DNA of 56,414 nt. Origin: a virus. The DNA lies in IMG/VR virus record IMGVR_UViG_3300024180_000007, positions 1 to 56,414 of that record; one strand, 5' to 3'. How positions within the stretch are numbered: the stretch's first letter is position 1; every line of letters begins with the position of its first letter. Shown here one piece after another: positions 5,138-54,033 of this stretch. The notes under the pieces were generated by a model. That model was not told the DNA's origin, ran no database searches, and worked only from the letters and a program-made list of their open reading frames with translations. The translations under genes were made by a program, and so were the position numbers.

Positions 5138-7364
5138 AATATATATAGAACTAAAAAATATAGTTCCTAAAAATGTTTTGACTACAAAAAACAAAGCAAG
5201 AACCTGGACCTACGGTTATAATGAAAAATACAATTTTGTTGTAGTGTCTAAAACAGGTCAAATTGATCAGATAATAAATATTAGTGGTTTAAATGTTGCG
5301 CTTCCCAAAGCTCCTAAAGACATTTTTAAAAGATCTAAAAAAAAAGAAGACCAATACTGGGAGGCTAAAATATTACCAAAACAATTAACAAGAATTAAAT
5401 CTATATTTCAATGGCATGATACTCCTTCGAGTTTTAAAAACGAGTGGGTAGATTATATTGAAAATGAATTTAATTTTAGAGAAGAAGGATTTTGGTTTAT
5501 AAATAAAGGAGTTCCTACTTACATCACTGGAACGCATTACATGTATTTACAGTGGACTAAGATTGATGTTGGATTTCCAGACTTTAGAGAAGCTAACAGA
5601 ATATTTTATATTTTTTGGGAAGCCTGTAAGGCAGACAAAAGAAGTTTTGGAATGGATTACTTAAAAATAAGACGTTCTGGCTTTTCATTTATGGCCTCAT
5701 GCGAGGGAGTTAATATGGGTACAATAACTAAAGATGCTCGTATAGGTATACTTTCTAAAACTGGATCTGATGCAAAAAAAATGTTTACAGATAAAATTGT
5801 TCCTATATCTAATAATTATCCATTCTTTTTTAAACCTATACAAGATGGTATGGATAAGCCAAAAACTGAATTAGCTTATAGAGTTCCTGCTGCAAAAATT
5901 ACTAAAAAAAATATGTATTTAAATGAAGAGCAAGAGCTTGAAGGTTTAGATACTACTATTGATTGGAAAAATACTGGAGACAACAGTTATGATGGTGAGA
6001 AGCTTCGACTACTACTACACGATGAAAGTGGTAAATGGGAGCGTCCTGATAATATTTTAAATAACTGGAGGGTTACAAAAACTTGTTTACGTTTAGGTAG
6101 TAAAATAGTCGGTAAGTGTATGATGGGTTCTACATCTAATGCATTAGAGAAAGGTGGTGGTAATTTTAAAAAATTATATAACGATTCTAATGTGGGATCA
6201 CGAAACTCTAATGGTCAAACTAAAAGTGGGTTATATTCACTTTTTATCCCAATGGAGTGGAATATGGAAGGGTTTATAGATAGGTATGGAATGCCTGTAT
6301 TTAATAATCCATCAAGTCCAGTATTAGGAATTGACGGTGAAATGATACATCAAGGAGCTATAGATTACTGGCAGAACGAGGTTGATTCATTATCTAATGA
6401 CCCTGATGCTTTAAATGAATTTTATAGACAGTTTCCGAGAACTGAGTCTCACGCATTTAGAGATGAAAGTAAACAGTCTTTATTTAATTTAACTAAAATA
6501 TATCAACAAATTGATTATAATGACTCATTAATTATGGGTCAAAATATAACTCAAGGATCGTTTTCTTGGCATAACGGAGTTAAAGATACCAGGGTAATTT
6601 GGACTCCAGATAAAAGAGGAAGATTTTTTGTATCTTGGTTACCAGAAATGTCGTTACAAAATAAAGTAACAATAAAAAATGGGAGGAAATATCCAGGGAA
6701 CGAACACATTGGATCGTTTGGTTGTGACTCTTATGATATTTCTGGAGTTGTTGTAGGGAAGGGATCTAATGGTTCTTTGCATGGTATGACAAAGTTTAAT
6801 ATGGATAACGCTCCAAGTAATGAGTTTTTTTTAGAATATATAGCACGTCCTCAGACTGCAGAAATATTTTTTGAAGAAGTATTAATGGCTTGTGTGTTTT
6901 ATGGGATGCCAATATTGTGTGAAAACAATAAACCTCGATTACTCTATCATTTTAAAAATAGAGGTTATAGAGGGTTTAGTACAAATAGGCCTGACAAAAC
7001 ATTTAATAAATTATCCAAAACAGAAAAAGAATTAGGTGGTATACCAAATTCAAGTGAGGATGTAAAACAATCTCACGCTTCTGCAATAGAATCTTACATA
7101 GAAAAGCATGTAGGTTTAGATTTAGTTCAAAATTATAGAGATAGTGATGAGATGGGTGTAATGTATTTTCAAAGAACATTAGAGGATTGGGCAAAGTTTG
7201 ATATTAACAATAGAACTAAGTTTGATGCTTCTATAAGTTCAGGGTTAGCAATCATGGCTAATCAAAAACACTTGTATACCCCAGCTAAAGAAAAATCGAA
7301 AATAAGCATTAACTTTGCAAGATATAATAATAAGAATTCAGTTAGTCAATTACTTAATAAATGA
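5115..7364 (+). CDS. terL: Terminase large subunit
   Basis: 749 residues, ATPase plus nuclease that packages DNA into the procapsid. A degenerate Walker A-like loop (KIRRSGFS, 184-191) precedes the Walker B LLLHDESGKWE with D303-E304. A C-terminal RNase H-like nuclease starts at FGCDSYDISG (D538). Conserved terminase blocks such as GTHYMYLQWTKID and FYRQFPRTESHAFRDE are present. No ATG exists near the N-terminus: the frame opens at 5097 and TTG at 5115 is the likely start, reading MQNQDQNKIYIELKNIVP. The gene overlaps the portal gene by 4 bp (ATGA). Confidence 0.9.
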   Translation: MQNQDQNKIYIELKNIVPKNVLTTKNKARTWTYGYNEKYNFVVVSKTGQIDQIINISGLNVALPKAPKDIFKRSKKKEDQYWEAKILPKQLTRIKSIFQWHDTPSSFKNEWVDYIENEFNFREEGFWFINKGVPTYITGTHYMYLQWTKIDVGFPDFREANRIFYIFWEACKADKRSFGMDYLKIRRSGFSFMASCEGVNMGTITKDARIGILSKTGSDAKKMFTDKIVPISNNYPFFFKPIQDGMDKPKTELAYRVPAAKITKKNMYLNEEQELEGLDTTIDWKNTGDNSYDGEKLRLLLHDESGKWERPDNILNNWRVTKTCLRLGSKIVGKCMMGSTSNALEKGGGNFKKLYNDSNVGSRNSNGQTKSGLYSLFIPMEWNMEGFIDRYGMPVFNNPSSPVLGIDGEMIHQGAIDYWQNEVDSLSNDPDALNEFYRQFPRTESHAFRDESKQSLFNLTKIYQQIDYNDSLIMGQNITQGSFSWHNGVKDTRVIWTPDKRGRFFVSWLPEMSLQNKVTIKNGRKYPGNEHIGSFGCDSYDISGVVVGKGSNGSLHGMTKFNMDNAPSNEFFLEYIARPQTAEIFFEEVLMACVFYGMPILCENNKPRLLYHFKNRGYRGFSTNRPDKTFNKLSKTEKELGGIPNSSEDVKQSHASAIESYIEKHVGLDLVQNYRDSDEMGVMYFQRTLEDWAKFDINNRTKFDASISSGLAIMANQKHLYTPAKEKSKISINFARYNNKNSVSQLLNK

Positions 7365-9796
7365 AAGACGTAAAGATACAAGTAAATGCCTCTGCATTTC
7401 CAGACCAATTTGTTTCAGATTCTGTTAAAGACACAATGGAGTTTGGACTACAGGTTGGGCAAGCAATACAATACGAATGGTTTAGGAGAGATAGTGGTTC
7501 TTGTAGGTTTTACTCACAATGGGGTGATTTTAACAGACTAAGACTTTATGCTCGTGGAGAACAATCAGTTTCTAAATATAAAAATGAATTAGCAGTAGAT
7601 GGTGATTTATCTTATTTAAATTTAGATTGGACTCCAGTACCTATAATACCAAAATTTGTAGACATTGTAGTTAACGGAATGAACGATAGGCTTTTTAAAG
7701 TAAAAGCTGTTGCTCAAGATGCATTGTCAGCAGAAAAAAGAAATGAATATCAAGAAATGGTTGAAGGTGATATGCTTGCTAAACCATTACTTCAACAAAT
7801 TGAATCTGATTTTGGTATTGATGCTTTTCAAACAAAAGAAGAAGATTTACCAGAAAATGATGCAGAGTTAGAGCTTTTCATGCAAATGAATTACAAGCCA
7901 GCTATTGAGATTGCAACAGAAGAAGCTATAGATACTTTATTTCAAGAGAGTCATTATAGTGACACTCGAAAGAGAGTTGATATGGATATTACTACTTTAG
8001 GTATTGGTATGGCAAAGCATCTTTTTATGCCAGGTGAAGGTGTTAAAGTTGAGTATGTTGATCCTGCAAATGTGGTTTATAGCTATACTGAAGATCCTTA
8101 TTTTAAAGACACATTTTATTGGGGCGAAATAAAAACAGTTCCAATAACTGAATTAATAAAAATAGATCCTTCTTTAACTAACGAAGATTTAAAAGAAATT
8201 TCCAAGTACAGTCAATCTTGGTATGATTATTATAATTCACAGCAGTTTTATGAAAACAGTATGTTTCATAGAGATACAGCTACCCTATTATATTTTAATT
8301 ATAAGACCACACACACTTTTGTTTACAAAAAGAAAAGTATGTCTGATGGTACATTTAAAACTGTTGAGAAGGATGATCAATTCAATCCTCCACAAGAAAT
8401 GATGGATGAAGGAGGTTTTGAAAAAGTAACTAAAACTATTGACGTATGGTATGATGGTGTTATGGTTATGGGAACTAATATAATGCTCCAGTGGAAGCTT
8501 GGAGAAAATATGGTAAGACCAAAATCATCAAGTCAGTATGCAATGCCTAATTATGTTGCATGCGCTCCAAAAATGTACAAAGGTCAGTTAGAATCTTTAG
8601 TTAAAAGAATGATTCCTTTTGCTGATTTAATTCAGATTAGTCATTTAAAAATACAACAAGTAGTTTCAAGAGTAGTTCCAGACGGTGTTTTTATTGATGC
8701 CGATGGATTGAATGAAGTTGACTTAGGAACAGGAAACGCATATAATCCAGAAGATGCTTTAAGACTTTATTTCCAGACAGGTAGTGTTATTGGTAGAAGT
8801 TATACTCAAGATGGAGAATATAATAATGCACGAGTTCCAATTACTCAATTAACGGCTAATAGTGGCGCAAGCAAGATGCAAATGCTTATTGGCAACTACA
8901 ATCATTACTTAGATATGATTAGGTCTGTGACAGGATTAAATGAAGCTCGTGATGGTTCAAGTCCAGACCCTAACTCTTTGGTTGGCGTTCAAAAATTAGC
9001 TGCATTGAATTCAAATGTAGCAACAAGACATATATTAAATGCAAGTTTATATATAACAAAAACTTTAGCTGAATGTTTATCAATAAGAACAGCAGATGTT
9101 TTAGAGTATGCTGATTTCAAAGATGAGTTTGCTATGCAAATTGGTAAATATAATTTATCAATATTAGAAGATATTAAAAGTTTGTATTTACATGACTTTG
9201 GAATATTTATAGAGCTGATGCCTGATGAAGAACAGAAGGCTATGTTAGAACAAAATATACAAATGGCTTTATCTAAAGAAAATATAAGTTTAGAAGACGC
9301 TATAGATATTAGAGAAATTTCTAATATAAAAATGGCTAATCAATTACTTAAAGTAAAAAGAAAAGCTAAACAAGATAGGGAGCAGCAGCAGCAAATGCAA
9401 CAACAGCAAATGCAGGCACAAATGCAAATGCAAGCACAACAGGCTCAAGCTCAATTAGCAATGCAGACACAGCAGGCTGAAACACAATCTAAAATGGCTT
9501 TAAAAGAAGCAGAGGTTGGTTTTGATATACAAAAATTGCAAAGAGAAGCAGAATTAAAACAACAGTTAATGCAAGTAGAATTCCAAATGCAAATGCAGTT
9601 AAAAGGAATGGAAAGCGAAAATTTAAAGTCAAGAGAAAACGAAAGAGAAAAAGCAAAAGACAAAAGAATAAGTCAGCAGTCTACTCAAACGTCTAAAATG
9701 ATAGAACAAAAAAAGAGAGACTTACCAGCAATAAACTTTGAATCTAACGAAGACAGTTTAGATGGTTTTGATTTAGCTGAATTTAACCCAAGATAA
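7361..9796 (+). CDS. Portal protein
   Basis: 811 residues. The N-terminal ~670 residues show the layout of a portal/head-tail connector: QYEWFRRDSGSCRFYSQWGDFNRLRLYARGEQ, then VPIIPKFVDIVVNGMNDRLFKV, and a long clip/stem region with SLVGVQKLAALNSNVATRHIL. From residue ~670 the chain is a Gln/Met-rich, then Lys/Glu-rich coiled coil (QQQMQQQQMQAQMQMQAQQA and onward), expected for the barrel or C-terminal extension. It sits directly after terL with a 4-bp overlap and before scaffold and capsid, the normal portal position. Longer than typical portals because of the Q-rich tail. Confidence 0.85.
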   Translation: MKDVKIQVNASAFPDQFVSDSVKDTMEFGLQVGQAIQYEWFRRDSGSCRFYSQWGDFNRLRLYARGEQSVSKYKNELAVDGDLSYLNLDWTPVPIIPKFVDIVVNGMNDRLFKVKAVAQDALSAEKRNEYQEMVEGDMLAKPLLQQIESDFGIDAFQTKEEDLPENDAELELFMQMNYKPAIEIATEEAIDTLFQESHYSDTRKRVDMDITTLGIGMAKHLFMPGEGVKVEYVDPANVVYSYTEDPYFKDTFYWGEIKTVPITELIKIDPSLTNEDLKEISKYSQSWYDYYNSQQFYENSMFHRDTATLLYFNYKTTHTFVYKKKSMSDGTFKTVEKDDQFNPPQEMMDEGGFEKVTKTIDVWYDGVMVMGTNIMLQWKLGENMVRPKSSSQYAMPNYVACAPKMYKGQLESLVKRMIPFADLIQISHLKIQQVVSRVVPDGVFIDADGLNEVDLGTGNAYNPEDALRLYFQTGSVIGRSYTQDGEYNNARVPITQLTANSGASKMQMLIGNYNHYLDMIRSVTGLNEARDGSSPDPNSLVGVQKLAALNSNVATRHILNASLYITKTLAECLSIRTADVLEYADFKDEFAMQIGKYNLSILEDIKSLYLHDFGIFIELMPDEEQKAMLEQNIQMALSKENISLEDAIDIREISNIKMANQLLKVKRKAKQDREQQQQMQQQQMQAQMQMQAQQAQAQLAMQTQQAETQSKMALKEAEVGFDIQKLQREAELKQQLMQVEFQMQMQLKGMESENLKSRENEREKAKDKRISQQSTQTSKMIEQKKRDLPAINFESNEDSLDGFDLAEFNPR

Positions 9797-11166: not shown

Positions 11167-12627
11167 ATGGCAGTAAATGTAACACCAGGATTTGACTTGC
11201 AGCCAAGTGCGCAGCAAACTCCTTTATCAACAAACTACATAACTAACTTTGATTTCTTGAACCAATATCTTCCAGATGTTCATGAAAAGGAATTTGAGCG
11301 TTATGGAAACAGATCAGTAGCATCATTCTTAAGAATGGTAGGTGCTGAAATGCCTTCTAATTCTGACCTTATTAAATGGGCAGAACAAGGAAGATTACAC
11401 ACTAAATATCAAGCTTGTACATCAGCTGCGGCTGTTGGAGCTGATGATGGTGTTTGGACTATTCCAAATAACATTACTAACTTCAATCCAGCTTTAGGTG
11501 GAACAGCAAGTCAAGCAGCTTTAAGAGCTGGGCAAACTGTAATGATCTCTGATAACACACCAGGTTCAACTTTACAAAACAAAGGTATTATATCTGTAGC
11601 TCCAACAGCTGCTAATCCAAACAAGGTAACTATTGCTTACTACGAAGGTGGTGGACAAACAATGGCTCTTGGAACTTCATGTGATATATTTGTATATGGT
11701 TCTGAATTTGCAAAAGGAGTAAACGGAATGCAAGGTTCTTTAGAATCTGATGATTTCTTTTTCCAAAACAAACCAATCATTATCAAAGACAAGTATTCTG
11801 TTTCTGGTTCTGACATGGCTCAAATTGGATGGGTAGAAGTAACAAGTGAAGGCGGAGCAAATGGATACTTATGGTATTTAAAATCTGAACACGATACAAG
11901 ATTGCGTTTTGAAGATTACTTAGAAACAGCAATGATTGAAGCAGTACCAGCAGCAGCAGCATCTGGTGCAGGAGACTACTTACAAGGTACAGCAGCAGGA
12001 GCTTCTGTAGCAGGAGAGTCTGGATCTGAAGGAATTTTCTATGTAGTAGGAAACAGAGGTAACGTATTCGGTGGTGGAAACCCAACGACTTTAGCTCAAT
12101 TTGACACTATAATTCAAAGACTTGATAAGCAAGGAGCTATTGAAGAAAATGTTATTTTCGTAGATAGAGATTTTTCTTTTGATATTGACGATATGTTAGC
12201 TGCTCAAAATGCAGGATATGCAGGTGGTACTTCATATGGTTTATTTGATAATGATAAAGATATGGCGTTAAACTTAGGGTTTACAGGATTCCGAAGAGGA
12301 TATGACTTCTACAAGTCTGACTGGAAATACTTAAACGATCCTACAATGAGAGGTGGTATCAATGCAGGTAAAGTCAATGGACTTTTAGTACCAGCTGGAT
12401 CTACAACTGTGTATGATCAAGTATTAGGTAAAAACGCTAAGAGACCATTCTTACACGTTAGATATAGAGCTTCAGAAACTGAAGACAGACGTTACAAGTC
12501 TTGGATCACTGGTTCAGCTGGTGGAGCAAGAACAAGTGACTTAGATGCTATGGAAGTAAATTTCTTGAGTGAGAGAGCTGTATGTACTTTAGGTGCAAAC
12601 AACTTCTTCTTATTCCAAGATGCATAG
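11167..12627 (+). CDS. Major capsid protein
   Basis: 486 residues. Position after portal and scaffold, an A-rich leader (repeated aaaaatt) and codon choice richer in C-ending codons than neighbours suggest the most highly expressed structural gene. The chain has the mixed alpha/beta make-up of HK97-fold capsid proteins: N-terminal arm (FLNQYLPDVHEKEFERYGNRSVASFLRMVGAEMP), central domain with an Ala/Gly-rich stretch near 260-285, and VDRDFSFDIDDMLAAQN...GLFDNDKDMALNLGFTGFRRGYDFY toward the end. It is followed by a strong terminator. Confidence 0.85.
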   Translation: MAVNVTPGFDLQPSAQQTPLSTNYITNFDFLNQYLPDVHEKEFERYGNRSVASFLRMVGAEMPSNSDLIKWAEQGRLHTKYQACTSAAAVGADDGVWTIPNNITNFNPALGGTASQAALRAGQTVMISDNTPGSTLQNKGIISVAPTAANPNKVTIAYYEGGGQTMALGTSCDIFVYGSEFAKGVNGMQGSLESDDFFFQNKPIIIKDKYSVSGSDMAQIGWVEVTSEGGANGYLWYLKSEHDTRLRFEDYLETAMIEAVPAAAASGAGDYLQGTAAGASVAGESGSEGIFYVVGNRGNVFGGGNPTTLAQFDTIIQRLDKQGAIEENVIFVDRDFSFDIDDMLAAQNAGYAGGTSYGLFDNDKDMALNLGFTGFRRGYDFYKSDWKYLNDPTMRGGINAGKVNGLLVPAGSTTVYDQVLGKNAKRPFLHVRYRASETEDRRYKSWITGSAGGARTSDLDAMEVNFLSERAVCTLGANNFFLFQDA

Positions 12628-12643
12628 TAGACAGTAGTAATAT

Positions 12644-12683
12644 TTACCCTCGTTATAAAAACGGGGGTAATTATTTTTTTTAA
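12644..12683 (+). terminator. Intrinsic terminator after the capsid gene
   Basis: An 11-bp stem with one G-T pair (TTACCCTCGTT, 12644-12654, with AACGGGGGTAA, 12660-12670), 5-nt loop, then a T-rich tract. It ends the scaffold-capsid transcript. Confidence 0.85.
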
Positions 12684-12704: not shown

Positions 12705-13460
12705 ATGAAAGCAAAAAAAGAACAGTACAAAGCAAAGTCGTATAGACTAAAAGGAGACCAAGCGCCTCTATCATACATGTTATCTTCACGACATTCACAA
12801 AGATCACCCTTATTATATTTTGACGAAAAAACAGGAGTCAATGAACCATTACGTTATGCACGTAATCAAAAGTCACCTTTTGAAAACCAACAAGATGGAA
12901 ATGCTATTTTAGAACCTATTGTGTTTGAAGATGGTATGTTGTCAGTTTCAAAAGAAAATCAAGTGTTGCAGAAATTTTTAGAACTACATCCAAGTAATGG
13001 GTATGTATTTGAAGAAATAAACAAAGAGCGTGATGCTGCTTCAGAATTAGAGCAAGTAGAGTTTGAATTAGAAGCTCAATTAGAAGCTAAAAAAGTAACT
13101 ACAGATCTTTCTAAGTTAACACAAGTATGTAGAGTGTTAATGGGTAATGCTGTAGAAAATATGACAACAGCAGAGCTAAAAAGAGACATATTAGTTTATG
13201 CTAAAAATTATCCAGATGATTTTTTAGACACTATTAATGATCCAATGTTAGAGTTAATGGACGATGTTTATCAGTTTTTTAATTTATCGTTATTAACAAT
13301 AAGAAACAATGGTAAAGATGTTTATTACAATTTATCTAATAATAAAAAGAAAATGCTTACTATTCCATTTGGGGAAGACCCTAATTTTATTGTAGCTTCA
13401 TTTATGAGAAGTGACGATGGTTTAGAAGTATATAAGCTTTTAAAAAACAAAATAAAGTAA
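12705..13460 (+). CDS. Conserved virion-region protein, unknown
   Basis: 251 residues. I do not recognise a named domain. The N-terminus is basic (MKAKKEQYKAKSYRLKGDQAP), with SRHSQRSPLLYFDEKTGVNEPLRYARNQKSPFENQQ, then an acidic helical centre (EINKERDAASELEQVEFELEAQLEAKK) and an alpha/beta C-terminus (GEDPNFIVASFMRSDDGLEVYKLLKNKIK). This layout occurs in proteins directly after capsid genes in related phages, so a head-completion or decoration role is possible. Flanked by terminators on both sides, it appears to be a monocistronic unit. Confidence 0.55.
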   Translation: MKAKKEQYKAKSYRLKGDQAPLSYMLSSRHSQRSPLLYFDEKTGVNEPLRYARNQKSPFENQQDGNAILEPIVFEDGMLSVSKENQVLQKFLELHPSNGYVFEEINKERDAASELEQVEFELEAQLEAKKVTTDLSKLTQVCRVLMGNAVENMTTAELKRDILVYAKNYPDDFLDTINDPMLELMDDVYQFFNLSLLTIRNNGKDVYYNLSNNKKKMLTIPFGEDPNFIVASFMRSDDGLEVYKLLKNKIK

Positions 13461-13484: not shown

Positions 13485-13513
13485 AGCTACCTCAAAAGGG
13501 TAGCTTTTTTTTT
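13485..13513 (+). terminator. Intrinsic terminator, first of two in tandem
   Basis: Stem AGCTACC (13485-13491) / GGTAGCT (13499-13505) with a 9-T run at 13505-13513. It ends the transcript of the gene at 12705. The T run leads directly into GCTATCTTT, a promoter-like box. Confidence 0.85.
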
Positions 13514-13515
13514 GC

Positions 13516-13523
13516 TATCTTTA
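13516..13523 (+). promoter_or_regulatory. Promoter-like box TATCTTTA inside the tandem terminator-promoter unit
   Basis: TATCTTTA differs from TAnnTTTG only in the last base and follows the T run of the preceding terminator. It belongs to a 19-bp sequence repeated exactly 74 bp downstream. Transcripts from here would meet the second terminator at once, so it may be a decayed copy. Confidence 0.4.
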
Positions 13524-13550
13524 AGCCTGACTGTTTTGATTGAATAATTA

Positions 13551-13587
13551 AAGAGAAGCTCTAAAAAAATAGGGCCTCTTTTTTTTT
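13551..13587 (+). terminator. Intrinsic terminator, second of two in tandem
   Basis: Two-part stem: AAGAG (13551-13555) with CTCTT (13576-13580), and GCTCTA (13558-13563) with TAGGGC (13570-13575), separated by a bulge on one side. A 9-T run follows at 13579-13587. Confidence 0.7.
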
Positions 13588-13589
13588 GC

Positions 13590-13597
13590 TATCTTTG
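13590..13597 (+). promoter_or_regulatory. Bacteroidetes-type promoter, -7 box TATCTTTG
   Basis: TATCTTTG starts three bases after the T run of the second terminator and 16 bp before the ATG at 13613, so transcripts would have a very short leader. It would drive the neck/tail operon (13613-22410). Confidence 0.75.
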
Positions 13598-13612
13598 TAA
13601 AAAGAATTAATT

Positions 13613-14590
13613 ATGCCAATAAATGAAGTAAGAAATACCGTATTAGCAATAGCTAATAAAAATAATTACGGATACATATCTCCACAAGATTTTAATCTTT
13701 ATGCTTCTCAAGCACAAATGGATATGTTTGAAGATTACTTTTATCAATACAACAATCAGTTAGTAAAAGAAAACCAAAGAACTTCAGGGACTGGATACGC
13801 AGATATAACAAAAGGTTTAGTGGAAGTTATTGATACTTTTTACGTAGACACTCCTTTATTAAACTCTGCAACAACGCAGTTGGGAGATATACAGACTAAT
13901 TTATACACACTGCCTTCTGATTATTATTTAATTAATAAGATGATGGTATACACAAAAGAATTAGCTTCAGGGGTTACCACTTCGACCAACGGCGGTTCTA
14001 TAGCGGTGAACGACACTTCTGCAGACTTTATTGCAGCAGGAGTATCGGTAGGAGATATAGTATCTACTATTACAGGAGGAGTGGTTTATAATACTGTAAT
14101 TTCACAAGTAGTTAGTGCAACTAATCTTTTAGTTTTTGCAACAACAGGCGCACAAGTCTGGAATGCTGTAGGAAAAACATACAACATATATTCAGCTAAT
14201 AATGTTATGGATGCTGAACGTGTTTCACAAGCTAAAATAACTATGCTAAATAATTCTATTTTAACAAAACCAACTTTAGGGTATCCTGCTTATACTCAGG
14301 ATGCTTTAGTTGCTCAGGCTTTTCCTATTACAATAAATAAAATAGGACAGCTTACATCGCAGTATGTTAGATATCCATTTACACCAAACTGGACTTATGC
14401 TACATTATTGGCTGGTGAACCTTTGTTTGACCCAACCGCAGCAGATTATCAAGACTTTGAATTACCTTTATCGGATGAACCTGCATTGATTGCAAAAATA
14501 TGTCAGTATGTAGGTATAGAAATAAGAGAGGCTGATGTTTATAATTTTGGTACTCAAGAATTACAACAAGAACAAATAACACAAGGATAG
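13613..14590 (+). CDS. Neck/head-tail connector candidate with inserted beta domain
   Basis: 325 residues. N- and C-terminal parts (YISPQDFNLYASQAQMDMFEDYFYQYNN near the start; DFELPLSDEPALIAKICQYVGIEIREADVYNFGTQELQQE at the end) are mainly helical and form a family I recall from the neck region of marine podovirus-like phages. Residues ~120-195 form an inserted beta-rich, Ser/Thr/Val-rich module (VSVGDIVSTITGGVVYNTVISQVVSATNLLVF) resembling modules in 21595 and 51693. First gene of the tail operon; the next ATG directly follows its stop. Confidence 0.6.
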   Translation: MPINEVRNTVLAIANKNNYGYISPQDFNLYASQAQMDMFEDYFYQYNNQLVKENQRTSGTGYADITKGLVEVIDTFYVDTPLLNSATTQLGDIQTNLYTLPSDYYLINKMMVYTKELASGVTTSTNGGSIAVNDTSADFIAAGVSVGDIVSTITGGVVYNTVISQVVSATNLLVFATTGAQVWNAVGKTYNIYSANNVMDAERVSQAKITMLNNSILTKPTLGYPAYTQDALVAQAFPITINKIGQLTSQYVRYPFTPNWTYATLLAGEPLFDPTAADYQDFELPLSDEPALIAKICQYVGIEIREADVYNFGTQELQQEQITQG

Positions 14591-22410: not shown

Positions 22411-22418
22411 AAATTTGC

Positions 22419-22426
22419 TATCTTTG
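22419..22426 (+). promoter_or_regulatory. Bacteroidetes-type promoter, -7 box TATCTTTG
   Basis: TTTGCTATCTTTG precedes the GNAT gene ATG (22444) by 18 bp. The same GCTATCTTTG context occurs at 13588. Confidence 0.7.
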
Positions 22427-22443
22427 TTATTAAATTATATTTA

Positions 22444-22851
22444 ATGGAATTTAATATACGAAGGCTTGAAGAAAAGGATTGGGACACATTAGTGTCTTGG
22501 TGGGATGAGTGGCCAGATTGGCAAAATCCTCCAAAAGATTTTTTACCAGACAATGGCACAGGCGGTTTGATGGTAGAGAAAGATAGCATTCCTATTGTTG
22601 CAGGATTTATGTATTTTACAAACTCTAAGGGGGTTTTATTAGAGTGGATTGTTTCTAATCCTTCTTATAGAGATGACGACAGGCAAGATGCTATTGAGTT
22701 TTTAATTTTAACATGTGAAGAATACATAAAGGCTAATGGTAAAAAATATATATTCAGCATTGGTAGAAATAAACATTTAATGGATACTCACAGAAAATTA
22801 GGGTATAACGTAGATACAAAAGTGTCTCATGAAATAATAAAAAAAATATAG
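22444..22851 (+). CDS. GNAT-family N-acetyltransferase
   Basis: 135 residues with the GNAT layout: IRRLEEKDWDTLVSWWDEWPDW (helix 1-2), VAGFMYFTNSKGVLLEWIVSNPSYR (strands 4-5), and an acetyl-CoA loop region around YRDDDRQDAIEFLILTCEEYI followed by LMDTHRKLGYN. The pyrophosphate loop is atypical (DDDRQD rather than QxxGxG/A), as in a phage-specific GNAT group I recall from marine phages. The substrate is unknown. It heads the ejection-protein operon; the next gene starts 2 bp after its stop. Confidence 0.75.
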   Translation: MEFNIRRLEEKDWDTLVSWWDEWPDWQNPPKDFLPDNGTGGLMVEKDSIPIVAGFMYFTNSKGVLLEWIVSNPSYRDDDRQDAIEFLILTCEEYIKANGKKYIFSIGRNKHLMDTHRKLGYNVDTKVSHEIIKKI

Positions 22852-23721: not shown

Positions 23722-26037
23722 ATGGCGGAAGATACATCAAGACCTTCAGGGGCAAATAAATATTCTATATATGCTCAAAGAAGTGTAGATAGCACTCAAA
23801 TGGACTGGAACGCAGCGTCTAAAGAATTAGTGACTGGGCTGCAAACCATACAGGCCGACAGAAATGCTCGTAAAGCTGCGATTGAAGAATCTACTCAGAA
23901 TGCTATAGAGCAGTTAAGCAAAGTTCCAGAAACTGGAACTCAAGACGCTGCATCTTTACTGATAAACGGTTCAAGTATGTCTGTAAAAGGTATACAAGAA
24001 CAAAACAATTTATTAAAGCGTGGTTTAATTAGCCCTTCAGATTATAAGCTGTATATGCAGCAACAAAAAAATGGTTATTCAAGTTTAAGTACGGCTGTAA
24101 AAGGTTGGGATGACTGGGCTGTTCAAGCAAAAGACAGATTACAAGCTGCAAAAGATGGCGGTGCAACAGCTTCAGAGTTAGAAATATTTTCAAATTTATC
24201 CGTTGAAGCTTTAGGTAATTTGAGAAATAAAAAACTATGGTCTAACCCTACTAACGGTAAAATGCAGTTAGTAACAATGGGTAAGAATACAAAAACTGGT
24301 TTATATGATGTAATGCCTGATTACGAAAAAAGAAAACAAGACTATCAAAATCCTAACCAGATAATGAATTTCATGAAGTTTGAACAGGATAGAATTGATG
24401 TTGATGATATGGCAACTGCTCAAACTGCTCAAATAGCAGACATTATACAAATAACTCTGGAAGGAGATGAGTATAAAAGACTGACAGGTGGTGGAAGACA
24501 GTTAAGCACAGAAGACTTTAGAAACCTTGGAGACTTTGGTACAGATGAAAATGGTAATGCAATAACATATGACATGTGGAAGTCTTCACAGTTAGATGCT
24601 ATGATTGGAGCGCCTGGAGATAAAAATAACATGAATGCGGCACAGGTTTTAACAAACTCTGGAAGATTTTTCTTTGCAGAAACAGAAAGTCAATTTGAGG
24701 AGAAACATCCAGGGATAGATAAAAAATATATGATTAAAGTGGATATGAGTTCAGGACAACCAGTTCCTGAAATGACTGATTCTCAGTACAAAGATGCTCG
24801 TAGACTTGCTGACATTGCAGTTGAATCACAAGTAAGTCATATAGAAAAAGTTGCAGAAGCAGCTAAATCAGCACAAGCACCACCACAACCAAATAGCACT
24901 ACAGTTGCAAAAAACAAACTGGATAGATCAATGGTTGGGTATATGGATGATGCAAATGCTATTGCGTCTGATGACGAATCAATATTTGAGGCTACAGCAC
25001 AAGATCGTATAGTAGCTTTAAATAAAGAAATGCAAAATTCTGGTGGTGATCCGAATAAAATGATTGATAGCATAACTCGTGATGACACATCTATTAAATT
25101 TACTTTAGCCGACGGAACAGTAGAAACAATACCAAGACTTGATGATAACGGTGTTCCAAGAAACGCTGAAGAGGTTGTTAGAGAGGTTTATAGATTGATT
25201 ACACCTCAAACATCTGAATATCAAAACTCATATAAAGACGCTGCAATATTATATAAAAAAGAGCCAGGCGGAGGTTTTAGAGCAACAGATAGAGATATGA
25301 CTGATATTGAGTTAATTGCAGCAGCTAAAGAAAAAAGAGCTGTGGCTAAATTGGATGCTGATGGAATTCCAAAAGAAATAGCTGAAACTAATGACCAAGG
25401 TGTTGCAACTGGTAAAATGATTCAAAATCCAGCATACGAACCAGCTCTTTCACAAGCGATTCTTAATGACACAGATAATATTACTGCTGATGAAAAAAAG
25501 GCTGTAAAGAAAAGAATATTAAAGAATATAACTGGAGAGAAATACAGAGCTTTAGCTCCTCTTCCAGCTCTAAAACAAAACACTGCTATAATTGGCGCTA
25601 AAATGGTAGACGGTGATGCAGTGGGAGCTACTGGTACAGAGCTTATCGAAGAAAAAGTAGGTGATAAATTATCAGGACTTAATGCTGGTTCTATTGGTGA
25701 CGATCCAGTAGAAGTTAATGATGTTTTAAGTCAGGTTATGAATGATTACCTTCCAGACGAAATAAAGGGTGGTGCTAAAGTTATGTTTAAAAAAGACAGA
25801 ATTGATGATAGTAAATGGGTTATTGAAGTTTCTTATTTTGATAGAGCTGGAGTACAGCAATCACTTCCTCCAATATATCCAGAGGTAGGAGCTATGCTGA
25901 ATACGAAAGGAGCAACACCTTCTCAGTTAAACGAAATGATGCATAAAGCAGCACAAGAAGTTTTAAACGAAGAAAACGCAAGACTTACAACAAGAAATCA
26001 AAGAGGTACAGGTAAAAACCGAAAAAAGTTTAATTAA
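23722..26037 (+). CDS. Internal virion (ejection) protein candidate B
   Basis: 771 residues, helical, Gln/Ala/Lys-rich and lacking recognised enzymatic motifs. The N-terminal part contains SVDSTQMDWNAASKELVTGLQTIQADRNARKAAIEE; further on are AAQVLTNSGRFFFAETESQFEEKHPGI and a long acidic C-terminal half. Its place between the small hydrophobic protein and the giant protein fits the T7 gp15-type ejection protein. It shares one base with the ATG of the giant gene. Confidence 0.55.
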   Translation: MAEDTSRPSGANKYSIYAQRSVDSTQMDWNAASKELVTGLQTIQADRNARKAAIEESTQNAIEQLSKVPETGTQDAASLLINGSSMSVKGIQEQNNLLKRGLISPSDYKLYMQQQKNGYSSLSTAVKGWDDWAVQAKDRLQAAKDGGATASELEIFSNLSVEALGNLRNKKLWSNPTNGKMQLVTMGKNTKTGLYDVMPDYEKRKQDYQNPNQIMNFMKFEQDRIDVDDMATAQTAQIADIIQITLEGDEYKRLTGGGRQLSTEDFRNLGDFGTDENGNAITYDMWKSSQLDAMIGAPGDKNNMNAAQVLTNSGRFFFAETESQFEEKHPGIDKKYMIKVDMSSGQPVPEMTDSQYKDARRLADIAVESQVSHIEKVAEAAKSAQAPPQPNSTTVAKNKLDRSMVGYMDDANAIASDDESIFEATAQDRIVALNKEMQNSGGDPNKMIDSITRDDTSIKFTLADGTVETIPRLDDNGVPRNAEEVVREVYRLITPQTSEYQNSYKDAAILYKKEPGGGFRATDRDMTDIELIAAAKEKRAVAKLDADGIPKEIAETNDQGVATGKMIQNPAYEPALSQAILNDTDNITADEKKAVKKRILKNITGEKYRALAPLPALKQNTAIIGAKMVDGDAVGATGTELIEEKVGDKLSGLNAGSIGDDPVEVNDVLSQVMNDYLPDEIKGGAKVMFKKDRIDDSKWVIEVSYFDRAGVQQSLPPIYPEVGAMLNTKGATPSQLNEMMHKAAQEVLNEENARLTTRNQRGTGKNRKKFN

Positions 26038-29000
26038 TGGATAAGTTTACAGAGTTATACAATTACTTGAAGGAAGAAGGATTAACAGATTTATCTGCTG
26101 AAGAATTTAAAGCTGAGTATGCAGCAGGTACTGCTAAAAACACAGAGTTATATTCTTATTTAAAATCTGAAAAATTAACAGATTTAGATGCTGAAAAATT
26201 TAATATAGAGTATTTTCCTGGTGTTGAAAAAAAAAATCCAAACGACATTTCTCCTTCAAACACTCCAGAGGTTATTACGGACTCTACTACCGAAACTCCA
26301 GAGGTCGTGGATACTTCTTTGGATACCTCCACACTTGAAAAACCTTTAGATGAAAATACTGTAGTAGATGTACAGGAAGAAGACACTACAGTTACTGAGT
26401 TCCCTGCATACGATCCGCGTGAGCAGGGTAAGGAAATAAATGCAAATCCAATTACATATAATTCCAGCGACTCTCAATTTGACAAATCATTAGCTTTTGT
26501 AACTAAAGATTTAATAGACAGAGAAGAAAGTGAAGTAGTCAACAGAATGAAATATCATTTTGAAGATTATGGTTTTGACTTTGAACAAGGCGGTGGATTT
26601 ATGAGTGGATTAGATGGTATGAAAGTTACGTCTAAAGATGATCCAACTAAAAGCATAAACATTAATCTTGATCCTGTTTTTGGAGATTTTTTTGGTGGTG
26701 AATCAGGACCTGCAAAAGAACTTAGAAAGTTTTTAAAAGAAAACAGAAGAACTGACCAGAGAATGGAAAGTCTGGATGCTTCTTATGATAAAAACAGAAA
26801 AAAATATTTTAGTGCTGAAGCAACTAAAGAAGACATTCAAGCTGTAAGAAATTCAGCAAAGAATCTAAATTCTAATTATAAAGTTTATCAGGACAGAAAA
26901 GCTATTCATGAAGCAGAAATAGACGCTTTATTAGGACAACCTAAAGAAATACAAAATACTCCTGAGTGGGAGTTAAAATATCAGCAAACTTTATTAGCAG
27001 GAAAAAGATTAAAACAATTTAAGAATCAATTAACAACAAATTATAATAGTTATAAAAAATTTGAAGGTCAAATAAACTCATCTGTTGGTAATTACATTGA
27101 CATGAAAGAAGCGGACGATAGTACGTTTTTTGGTGGTTTAGTAAATGATATTGTTGGGCCTGGTGTCAGTGATGTTCTTGCAGCTGTTTGGGGTGCTGGT
27201 GTTGATGGGTTTTATAAAGCGGCGCAGTTTATTTACGAAGATTTTGGGATGAATGCTGAGGAAAAAAAAGATCGTTACATTGATATTGCAAGAGATCTTG
27301 GGTATCCAGTTCCTGAAAATATAGAAGACGATGCTGTTTATACAAAGTGGTTAGAAAACTTGCAGGATCAAGGGTTTGATGATGATAAAGCAGAAGGTGA
27401 ATTTTCAATTAGTACGTTTTCTAAAGAAACAATGGAACGACTTGAAGCTGATGGTTTTGATTTAAGTAAACCAACTGTAAATGGACAATACTTCAATAAA
27501 AATCAGTCAGGATTAAATAGATTTTTAAATGGACAATACATTGACCTTCCTGACTATGCTTATGATAAAACAAAAGGTGAAAGACTAAAACGATTAGTAT
27601 TAGATCAAGAGGTAAAAGAAAATAAAAATCCACAAAAAGATTTTATAAAAAAATACTGGAACGAAATTGTTTCAGCTGATGACATTTCAGATGAAAAATA
27701 CGCAAAACAATCTAATAGTAACATTGTTTACACTGGACTTTCTGGTCTTGCTAAATCACTTCCATCTGTATTAACTTCTTTTGCGTCCAGAGGAAAAATA
27801 GCTCCAGCTGTTGGATTAGGAGCAGCAAAAAGAAATTTAATTGCAAAAGGATTAGGCTTAACAACAAGAGGTGGCATTGCTCAAACAGTTTCATTTGCTA
27901 TGCTCCAAGCTGAAGCAATGAATGTTGAAATGAACAATGACCCTGATTTTAAGTATGTTACTGAATCAGAAAGAAAGAACATTGTTATACCTACTGCTAT
28001 CACAGTTGGTATATTAGAGCGTTATGGTTTTAGAAATATAGCAGGTAACAAAGCTATAATGACTGGTTTAATGAACAAGGTAACTAATATGTTACCTAAA
28101 AACGCAACTGCAGCAATGTTTAAAAACCAAATGAACAAACTTGTTCAAAGTAATATTGCAAAAGGAATTTTTTCAAACACAGCTGTAAAAACTGCTGCGA
28201 CTTTTACTGGTCGAGTTACTAAAGCTGCTTTAGCAGAAGCAGAAACAGGTGGTCTTCAGCAAATAGCTGAAATGGGATACAAGGATGTATGGAATAACAT
28301 GAATAATAAAGACATGTTTGATCAACCTGAATTATGGACTAAAGAATTTTGGGGAACAGTTGGACATGCTGCAGCTGCTGAGGCTGTTGGTGGTTTTGTA
28401 ATGGGTGTTCCAGGAGCAGTAATTGCAGCGGCTAAAAACAAGACTTCCGATTTACTATCTGATGATCTTGTTGAAATGTTTGACATGATAAGAAATGATG
28501 AAATAACTGTAGAAGCTTATCAAACACAGTTAGACTTAGGCGTTTCTAATGGTAAGATAACATCAGAGCAAGCATCAAAACAGATGTTAGATTTTCAAAC
28601 ATTAAGTGGAGCTGCTAACACTCTTCCAAGTGACTTAGATGTTAACTCAAGAAAAAAAGGATTAGTTTTAATTTTTGAGCAGCAACAATTAGAAGCTGAA
28701 ATGGAAAAAATGAATAAGAATTTAAATTCTTATAAAACCAGAGAAGCCAGAGTTGAACAAATAAAAACCGAAATTGGACAGCTTGGGACTAATCAAGCTC
28801 AAGCAAATACTAATTTAAAAAATGAGACTGAAGGAATTCAAGAATCTGTTTTAGTAACAGAAGAAGATGCCACAAAATCTTTACAAGATAAGGGGGTGCA
28901 AAACCCTACAGTTGAACAAATTAAAACCGAACAAGATGCCCTACAAAAGCAAAGCACAACGAGCCTGGATGCACAAGAATCTTCCAGAAGTGGCGAAACG

Positions 29001-32000
29001 GTGGGACAAAGCGTACCCAACATCCAGTCTACCCAACAGAGCAAAAGCGAAACCGAAACTCAAAACAGGGAGAAGACCCAAGAGGAAGTAAGTCAAGAAG
29101 AGCAAAATGATATAGACGATTTCTTTGGTGATGAAGTTTTAGATGACGTTGAAACCTCTTCAGATAATTTATCTATAAATAGAAAACAAGTAGAGGGAGA
29201 TACAGAAATAGAGAACACAACTTTAGCATCAGCTGTAGTAAATAAAGCTAAAAAAGCTGCACGTGCAATTGCAAAAATAGCACCTGAAGTAAAAATAGTT
29301 TTACACGACACACAAGCAGAATACGAAAAGTATGCAACAAAAGGTAGTCGTGGGTATTACAATCCAAACAGTAAAGTTATACATATTAACTTAACTAAAG
29401 CTAAAGGAAATACAGTGGCACACGAAGTTTTTCATGCGGTGTTTTTAGATAAAATATCAGGTGGAGATGTTCAAGCTCAACAAGCAGCTTTAAAATTAAT
29501 AACTTCTGTAAGAAAAACCTTACCAGCTGAATCTTTATTAGCTAAAAGAATAGATAATTTTGCTAAAAATTATGATGAAAATATTAAAAATGAAGAGAAG
29601 TTAGCAGAATTATTCTCTTTGATGGCCACTGAATATAAAACATTAAAGAAGCCAGGGAAGAACAAAGTTATAGAATTTATAAGATCAATGGCGGCTAAGT
29701 TAGGCGTTACAATACCTGGTGGTTTTGGAAAAACAGACGAGTCAGTTATAGATTTTATGAACGCATTTTCTAAAAAAGTTAGAACTGGTACGGAAATAAC
29801 AGAAGGTGATGTAGATGTTTTAAATAAAATAGATGAAGAGTTAGATGTAGAGCAAGAACAGGGTGAATCTGGGCAAGTTGGTACTTTTACTTTTAAAGGT
29901 AGAGAATCAAAAGCTCCAGACATTAATACAGATACCAGGTCTTATGCAAAAAACATTATTCAAAAAGATTTACAAGATTATAATGGGCAAAACTTTGTGA
30001 CTAACATGTATGATTTTACTAATGCTGGACCAACTGACATTGGAGCTGGTATTGTATTAGACTTGTATGGAGGTAAAAATTATGTTGCTGATATGATGGA
30101 AAAAACAGGAACTAAATTAGGAGAGGTTTCTAATGTTGCTGCTTTTAACACTAAAGGTCAAGCTGAAGGATTTATTAAAAACGCTATAGATGGAAATGCA
30201 AATTTATTTGCTCCACACGTAGGAACTAAAGAAGGTTCTTGGCAGTTTCAACAAAATATATTTGAGCAGTTAACTGAAAAATTATTAGATAATAATATAC
30301 TAACTAATCAAGAGTTAATTGAAAGTTTTAATGATGGTTTAAAAAGTAAAAATGGTCAAAGTGCATTAAATATATTTAATAAAAAATATAAAAAAAACCT
30401 AACTAATTTAAATGAATTTAAAGATAATCCTAAAAGATTAGTAGAGCTTTTAGATATTGATAATAATTATTCGCCAGATTTAAGAAAAATATTAAACGAT
30501 AAAATAGCTTCAAACAAAAAAGTTCAAGCTGCTTTAGGTATTAAAAATAAAATTCAATTTGCTGAGTTATTAGAAGACCCTATGAATGTAGGAAGTCAAA
30601 AATTTGATATCATAGGTCTTGTTGAATTTGATAATACTACTTTTAAAACTCCTTCAAGACCAAAGAAAGGAGATGCTGATTATCATCCTTCTTTTGCATG
30701 GACTGTAAAAGCCAAAATAAAAGCTATTGTTCAACCTACAAATTTTTATCAAAGCACTGAGGTTACCGATTCTTATACAAAATTTAACAAGTCAGGAGCA
30801 GTAGTTTCTACAAGAGAAAATACTAAAGACTTTAAGTCGTCTAATGTATCCAGTAGTGCAGGTTCAGGGCCTAAAGTAGCCACTGTAAAATCTGAAATAA
30901 GACAAGGTAGAGAGCAATCTACTGAACAGCAAGTAAAAGATCAAACTGGAATGCCAGCAAGTGGGTTCTATAGCGCTCAAGCTATGGTGTCAGACATCCA
31001 ACGTCAGTTTAATAGAATTGGTCCAGGATATGTAGCTAAAAGAGCTAAACAAGGAGCTTATGGGGGCGGAGGCGGAGTGTTTGTTGTTGGTCCTAATAAA
31101 CGTATTGTAAAAAATCCTACACGAAAAGGACGTCAGCAGGCAATGGATAATGAAAACGATTTGCTTAGAATTATAATAGCTGGCCGAGAAGAAGGAGGTT
31201 TTGAAGATGCAGCTATAAAAGATTATTTAAAGAGAAGAAAAAGAAAGGTTGATGGTAAAACAGCAAGTGCTTATAGTGCAAAAGAAATTAATGCTGCATT
31301 CAAAGTTTTAGAAAGCGAAGCTTTTGATTCTTACATGTTTAGAGAATACCCTACAAGTTTTAATGACATAAAAGGTGGTTTTCTGGCTGGTCTTAAATTA
31401 ATGAAAGATGTTGATACTTACTATAAAAAATTAGTTGAAAAGAATAATTTAATTAAAGACAGAGTTGCAAAAAACAGAAAGACAAAACAAGTTCCTTTAA
31501 CTGACGAACAAATTAATTTGAAAGTTTTAGATTACTTTATGTCGCTTCCAGGATACAAAAGCGTAGGGGTAAAAGGCAAAAGACAGACATCCCAGCAGCT
31601 TGCTATGGAACGTGATATGTTAAACATACTGCTTCCTGATCCATTAAAGGCTAATCCTAAACGTATTGCAGCAATAAACAGAAGAATAAAAAACATAAAG
31701 TTCACTGAAAGAAACCTTAAAGGTGTTCAGAGAGCTTTAAGAAATTACATAAGAACAGTACTACCAAGGGATTTATATACTAAAAAAGAAATAACTGATT
31801 TAATTGATAAAGTGAATAGAGTAAACGCTACAAACTTTGAATCAGTTAAAGATGAGGTTTTTAAAATAGTTACTACAAAAACAAACAAAAGACTTGAGAG
31901 TGTTTTATTTAAGATGCTTGATAAAGCTTATACCACTATTCAAAGCGGTAGATTTAAAGGTGTTAAAATTGATAATGAAACTCGTAAAAAGTTAAATCGT

Positions 32001-53027: not shown

Positions 53028-53309
53028 ATGAGTTGTAAAGGATTAAAAGGTAGAAAATATAGAAAGTGTATGAAGGCTTATGTTAAACAGTCTAAAAGAA
53101 CTTTTCCTTCATTTAATAAGGATTTAGATACAGTATCAACTGCAATACAAACCAACAATCGAGGTATGGTAGAAAGAATGCGTAATAATAAAAGAAATTT
53201 TGTAGTTCAAAGGAATTTAAAAGGAGCAGTTAAAGAGCAACTTGTTAAGAGCAATGACCCGAAAGATAAATACCCATTTAAACTTAAAGTTTTAAAAAAG
53301 AAGAAATAA
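53028..53309 (+). CDS. Lysine-rich small protein
   Basis: 93 residues, MSCKGLKGRKYRKCMKAYVKQSKRTFPSFNKDLDTVSTAIQTNNRGMVERMRNNKRNFVVQRNLKGAVKEQLVKSNDPKDKYPFKLKVLKKKK. Helical centre, basic throughout, N-terminal SCKG...RKCMKAY. It overlaps the next ATG by one base. Function unknown. Confidence 0.6.
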   Translation: MSCKGLKGRKYRKCMKAYVKQSKRTFPSFNKDLDTVSTAIQTNNRGMVERMRNNKRNFVVQRNLKGAVKEQLVKSNDPKDKYPFKLKVLKKKK

Positions 53310-53713
53310 TGCCAGATCCAAAAAAGAAAAAAACTATAGTCTATGCTAAGGGAGCAAAAAAAACTAAAGGTGAAAGCAATGTAAAAGTGCCTGGCTCTTT
53401 TAAGGTAACTAAAAGAAGTGAGGTAAAAATGAAGGGTAGAAAGGGAGGTAAAAATACTGAAACTTTTAAAAGCAAATCTTATGTTTCAAACATGGATGAT
53501 ACTAAAATTAGTCGTGTAAAAATGAAGACTAATAAAAAAGGTAAAGGAACTGAATCTTTTAAACAAATTAAAAAAAACAAAGACGGAACTTATGCGTTGT
53601 CTAAGTGTAATAAAAAAGGTAAATGTACAAACAGAAAAGTTTCTAAATTAAGGGGTAAATTTATTACAAGTAGAATGAAAAAAAATAGAGATAAAATGAA
53701 AAAGAAGAAATAA
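53309..53713 (+). CDS. Lysine-rich MPDPK protein 2 (tandem paralogue)
   Basis: 134 residues. From residue ~49 onward it is homologous to the following gene: NTETFKSK...SNMDDTKISRVKMK, then ESFKQIKKNKDGTYALSKCNKKGKCTNRKVSKLRGKFITSRMKKNRDKM. Lysine makes up roughly a third of the chain. The KDGTYxLSKC...GKC hairpin may be a small structured core with metal-capable cysteines. The MPDPK start is shared with 50762 and 53713. Confidence 0.6.
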   Translation: MPDPKKKKTIVYAKGAKKTKGESNVKVPGSFKVTKRSEVKMKGRKGGKNTETFKSKSYVSNMDDTKISRVKMKTNKKGKGTESFKQIKKNKDGTYALSKCNKKGKCTNRKVSKLRGKFITSRMKKNRDKMKKKK

Positions 53714-54033
53714 TGCCAGATCCAAAAAAAATACCAGCATCAAGAATTAAGTCAAAAATTGAGCTTAAAGAAAAAATTAAAAAAAACAGGGCAACTGAAA
53801 GTGCGAAAGAGACTATTTATGATACAAGCATGGATGGTAACCGTATTAGTCGTGTAAAATCAAAGCTTAAAAATAGAAAATCAACTGAAACTTTTAAAGA
53901 AATTAAAAAAAACAAAGATGGTACTTACACATTGTCTAAGTGTAAAAGAGGTAAATGTAAAACCAGCAAAGTTTCTAAATTAAGAGGCAAGTTCATTCAA
54001 AGTAGAATGAAAAAAAAGAGAGATAAGTTATAA
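53713..54033 (+). CDS. Lysine-rich MPDPK protein 3 (tandem paralogue)
   Basis: 106 residues, MPDPKKIPASRIKSKIELKEKIKKNRATESAKETIYDTSMDGNRISRVKSKLKNRKSTETFKEIKKNKDGTYTLSKCKRGKCKTSKVSKLRGKFIQSRMKKKRDKL. The last ~50 residues are nearly identical to those of the preceding gene, a tandem duplication. One-base stop/start overlaps join it to both neighbours. Confidence 0.6.
   Translation: MPDPKKIPASRIKSKIELKEKIKKNRATESAKETIYDTSMDGNRISRVKSKLKNRKSTETFKEIKKNKDGTYTLSKCKRGKCKTSKVSKLRGKFIQSRMKKKRDKL

Follow-up and report, generated by a model that had tools for sequence, protein, structure and literature searches.

The window analysed here is the whole 56,414-nt virus record IMGVR_UViG_3300024180_000007 (positions 1 to 56,414). 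A gene at 7361–9796 matched portal proteins, and the gene at 11167–12627 matched virion structural proteins; the product of the latter was taken as the major capsid protein from its position and size. Downstream lie g251 and g325, separated by the two transcription joints described below. The g325 homologue in the cultured elemo phages is annotated as a structural protein, and g325, g307, and a 1595-aa protein, all encoded downstream of the joints, matched virion structural families; g325 is a head/neck structural gene. A strong hairpin terminator is also found at 12644–12670, past the capsid gene and ahead of g251, and no TAnnTTTG box follows it. The window further contains a 2963-aa ORF at 26037–34928, which had no Pfam match. 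Among named relatives, the Flavobacterium elemo phages and an uncultured podovirus with a portal annotated as P22-like stand closest, and therefore a Flavobacteriia host is likely for the window virus.

The region between g251 and g325 holds two exact copies of the 19-mer CTTTTTTTTTGCTATCTTT, at 13504–13522 and 13578–13596, as claimed in an earlier note made from the sequence alone. Their starts are 74 bp apart, and the match around them can be extended to 29 bp at 86% identity. A hairpin stands ahead of each copy, and each copy runs into a TATCTTT(A/G) box. The base that follows is A after the first copy (13523) and G after the second (13597), consistent with the claim that only the second promoter is intact. 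At both joints, a G+C-containing hairpin is directly followed by a T-run, which is the form of an intrinsic terminator, and a TAnnTTTG box close to a start codon is present at the second copy only (ATG at 13613). In 200 dinucleotide-preserving shuffles of the window, no 19-mer was repeated within 100 bp, and a run of at least eight T followed after 0–4 nt by TAnnTTTG occurred 0.085 times per shuffle. The second unit is the only run of six or more T in the window that is fused to an intact TAnnTTTG. The same two-joint allele was found in the independent contigs L182 and L197–L201, indicating that the tandem pair is not an assembly artefact.

Table. Features of the g251–g325 region of the window.
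Feature	Position	Strand	Description
g251, left of the slot	12705..13460	+	251 aa, adjoins the capsid gene; PHROG phrog_34748, unknown function; relatives have homologues ahead of joint 1
Joint 1, predicted terminator	13485..13513	+	8-bp hairpin 13485–13505, T9 13505–13513; −11.0 kcal/mol; found by scan
Joint 1, −7 box, truncated	13516..13523	+	TATCTTTA; TATCTTTG or TATATTTG in most relatives
Scar of deleted slot gene	13523..13557	+	Last codon and stop GCC TGA (13525–13530), then 3′ flank
Joint 2, predicted terminator	13553..13587	+	Bulged 9-bp hairpin 13553–13578, T9 13579–13587; −10.6 kcal/mol
Joint 2, −7 box	13590..13597	+	TATCTTTG; matches sigma-A TAnnTTTG; conserved in relatives
g325, first gene past joint 2	13613..14590	+	Virion structural protein; phrog_14543, head and packaging

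Two other short sequences were recorded near gene starts in the window. At 22414–22426, TTTGCTATCTTTG lies ahead of the gene at 22444 and comprises the joint 2 −7 box and neighbouring bases, with neither a hairpin nor a long T-run. An exact repeat at 53295–53325 and 53699–53729 (AAAAAGAAGAAATAATGCCAGATCCAAAAAA) marks the starts of two adjacent ORFs and is a second repeated gene-start sequence in the window genome.

Related phages were searched for the fused unit as the earlier note had proposed, and 80 contigs were fetched with g325; joint 2 was judged in those extending far enough upstream. A hairpin, T8–10, about 2 nt, and TATCTTTG were found just upstream of the g325 homologue in nearly all of the related contigs. 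Among the contigs that reach far enough upstream, the box reads TATCTTTG and only once TATATTTG, and the commonest forms of the joint are T9GC and T10GC. In eight contigs (L062–L067, L069, and L070), the T-run is interrupted (TTTTTATTTTGTTTATCTTTG), with the hairpin and TATCTTTG still visible. In relatives as distant as the elemo phages and a Manatee Spring phage, a single hairpin, T-run, and TATCTTTG are present with a longer gap.

The stems were then compared after anchoring on the T-run, which gave 42 distinct hairpins. The joint 2 stem showed compensatory changes across these hairpins, with three to five pair types at several positions: the fourth pair from the base occurs as G-C, T-A, T-G, C-G, or A-T, and variation is just as wide at pairs 5 to 7. 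The two arms of each contig's own stem pair at 100%, and arms swapped between contigs pair at 71%. The claim of a compact insulator that ends one operon and starts the next thus stands for the second copy, which is conserved in relatives and has a covarying stem, as a prediction about transcription. A conserved stem at message 3′ ends would also fit an mRNA stability element or a processing site, with no termination at the hairpin; however, T8–10 immediately after the stem is the classic form of an intrinsic terminator, and the covarying stems keep their position ahead of the T-run, so that we regard this alternative as extremely improbable.

In most relatives, the interval between g251 and g325 consists of joint 1, an insert of one to three small ORFs, and joint 2. 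Hairpin 1 of the window belongs to the joint 1 class of these relatives (AGCTACC..GGGTAGCT compared with AGCTACC..GGGTGGCT; the shared class is also given as AGCTACC..GGTGGCT), and hairpin 2 belongs to their joint 2 class. Many of the slot proteins are 92–113 aa long, start with M-x-K-F/Y-L, and align as one very divergent family. The slot proteins (L012:1099–1380, L024:1452–2924, L075:2202–3712, and others) are fast-evolving and have a near-invariant Trp. They are predicted to adopt a beta-rich fold with one helix. Searches of the slot proteins gave only weak and unconvincing matches in PHROG and no confident fold match in the PDB, and the closest predicted structures in the viral structure library were viral proteins without assigned function. 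No match was obtained in phage records by tblastn with two members of the family, and a profile search of the window found no member anywhere. Partial forms of joint 1 also occur: in L006–L010 the first promoter is lost and the first terminator (hairpin and T-run) is kept, and in L048 and L050 the first hairpin is lost and the promoter is kept ahead of their slot gene. The terminator and promoter halves of joint 1 are thus separable.

With regard to how the two joints came to adjoin, the bases past the first box diverge from the continuation of joint 1 in relatives (TACTTTATTAACCC). The 52-bp spacer instead matches the end of a slot gene, including the last alanine codon, the stop, and the 3′ flank, where the window reads GCC TGA and the relatives GCA TAA. 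The alignment to the slot-gene ends of L018, L032, L078, and L082 is ungapped over 32 nt (GCCTGACTGTTTTGATTGAATAATTAAAGAGA against GCATAACAGCATTAATTAAACAATTAAAGAGA), its score was reached in 0 of 200 shuffles, and it can be extended to the left as far as TATC(T/G)TTAA. The deletion may have exploited the brief similarity of TATCTTT in the −7 box to TATCGTT near the slot-gene end. The first box reads TATCTTTA because the deletion junction falls there. When an intact source of the spacer was sought, the only matches were to this allele in other contigs. In the g325 tree, the clade of the window is nested among insert-bearing contigs, and L058 represents a separate loss.

The earlier note had called the unit duplicated. 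If one terminator-promoter unit had recently been duplicated in tandem in the window lineage and the first promoter had then decayed, this would account for the 19 identical bases, the 86% match over 29 bp, and the 74-bp spacing. This part of the note was not upheld. The hairpins fall into two separately conserved classes, each orthologous to its own joint in relatives, and the spacer matches the end of a slot gene; tandem duplication was rejected on the orthology of the joints, and we consider it very unlikely. The match to the slot-gene end and the g325 tree indicate that the joints came together by deletion of the gene between them and not by duplication.

Taken together, these comparisons make it highly probable that the window carries two fused joints around an emptied accessory-gene slot, the insert having been deleted in the window lineage. 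Each unit would be a fused joint, in which the T-run of an intrinsic terminator passes straight to a −7 box of the Bacteroidota sigma-A type, and one short sequence would thereby end the upstream message and start the next. The two joints bracket an accessory-gene slot between g251 and g325, and each insert would carry its own promoter and terminator and could therefore be exchanged or lost with its neighbours unaffected. The deletion in the window lineage would have begun at the first −7 box and reached the slot gene's last codon, leaving joint 1 as a terminator alone and joint 2 as the promoter for g325. Hairpin 2 is weakest in the emptied-slot clade, with energies of −10.6 (window allele), −5.7 (L006), and −0.4 kcal/mol (L008), compared with −12.4 to −17.3 kcal/mol outside the clade of the window. 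L058 keeps a strong hairpin 2 (−13.5 kcal/mol) beside a relic of hairpin 1, and decay of hairpin 2 after slot loss is therefore not a rule.

The inserts are replaced between otherwise similar flanks. In the pairs L051/L196, L078/L133, and L155/L158, both flanks are 93–97% identical and the inserts differ, and the flanks of L016/L024 are 95% and 90% identical; the contigs are metagenome assemblies, and strain mixture is a caution for all of these comparisons. In L039/L040 and L052/L053, the insert and the right flank are shared at 100% and the left flanks (the g251 versions) are 76% identical, suggesting exchange of the left flank. The shifts in similarity coincide with the joints or lie no more than a few tens of bases away. 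The joints were also considered as recombination hotspots. The slot flanks were discordant by at least 10 points in 23% of close pairs, compared with 22% at the neighbouring g325/g307 junction, which lacks the motif; recombination may pass through the joints, but a special role for them is therefore unsupported. Exchange at gene borders is general in this phage family.

The TAnnTTTG −7 box is that of Bacteroidota sigma-A promoters (PMC9723704, PMC7366714), and host sigma-A would be expected to use it at the joints. In F. psychrophilum, the sigma-A box lies at −12 to −5 (PMC9723704), and therefore transcription from the joint 2 box is predicted to start near 13602, giving an 11-nt leader. The −33 TTTG element was not seen at joint 2, where that position falls in the 3′ arm of the hairpin. 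This is not decisive, because no −33 element could be found in F. johnsoniae, according to the work cited in PMC7366714. The joints share the −7 box with Bacteroidota promoters; in contrast to these, almost all copies of the box in the window phage family are fused to a terminator.

In three gut Bacteroidota genomes, T7-NN-TAnnTTTG occurred 65 times and the reversed control five times, and the bacterial matches to the fused pattern were mostly from Bacteroidota. A hairpin was present in 24 of 118 bacterial loci with T8 and the box and in 46 of 232 with T8 and no box; the frequencies are alike, and the T-run is therefore an ordinary promoter neighbour in these loci. Both results would suit a reading of the phage T-run as mainly a promoter feature, a T-rich spacer ahead of the −7 box, with hairpins that terminate little and a ‘terminator’ that is incidental. 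L006 and L008, which retain T9 and the box despite their weakened or nearly absent hairpin 2, would fit it as well. However, nearly all of the phage units have a stable stem ahead of them that shows compensatory changes, and L006–L010 keep the hairpin and T-run of a joint 1 that has lost its promoter, which makes this reading unlikely. The regular hairpin, and not the T-run with the box, is what sets the phage joints apart from Bacteroidota genomes.

Starting from fused joints, a further step is conceivable, although we think it rather doubtful: the strict fusion of T8–10, about 2 nt, and TATCTTTG could be a polymerase hand-over device. On this reading, the T-run would release the polymerase about 15 bp short of the next start, the enzyme would bind again at the −7 box alongside, and the hand-over would couple the expression of adjacent virion genes. 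For the E. coli polymerase, recycling after termination is known in vitro (PMC6978380). If the hand-over is true, a dedicated natural element for polymerase recycling would be new. In a phylum whose promoters are unusual, the fused geometry offers a clean natural test both of such recycling and of terminator-promoter insulation. For Bacteroidota phages, a group with sparsely mapped gene regulation, the analysis also defines a conserved transcription joint, and it documents the exchange and emptying of an accessory-gene slot beside capsid genes.

Several known systems resemble these joints in part. The T7 terminator Tphi lies after the capsid gene, is partial, and can set the product ratio between capsid and tail/neck genes. 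The joints likewise place a predicted terminator between capsid and tail/neck genes; unlike them, Tphi is a partial terminator with no attached promoter. The morons of lambdoid phages are extra genes with their own promoter and terminator that are absent from relatives (PMC1524935). Similarly, slot genes with their own promoter and terminator are present in the relatives and absent from the window. In contrast to morons, the slot inserts are largely one fast-evolving family of small proteins, and the flanking signals belong to the backbone. The PeSL-like motif of the haloarchaeal virus HGTV-1, a conserved promoter and inverted repeat ahead of many ORFs, was proposed as an aid to shuffling, but its promoter is of the archaeal TATA type (PMC3950731). 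A further parallel is offered by the PeSLs (promoter early stem-loops; Arbiol 2010, Comeau 2014) of T4-like phages, which, as described in PMC4503421 and PMC3950731, are composite promoter-terminators between small accessory genes and are tied to gene shuffling. As in those accounts, a composite promoter-terminator is repeated in our phages at the borders of exchanged accessory genes. Compared with the PeSLs so described, the joints have a Bacteroidota TAnnTTTG box, the terminator stands before the promoter with contact through the T-run, one slot is involved, which lies among the structural genes of a podovirus-like phage, and there are one or two copies per genome where PeSLs are many. Neither T4-like myovirus membership nor a T4-type early promoter was found, given the P22-like portal in the related podovirus record and the TAnnTTTG box. 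The joints therefore work like PeSLs but are not PeSLs by lineage or promoter type.
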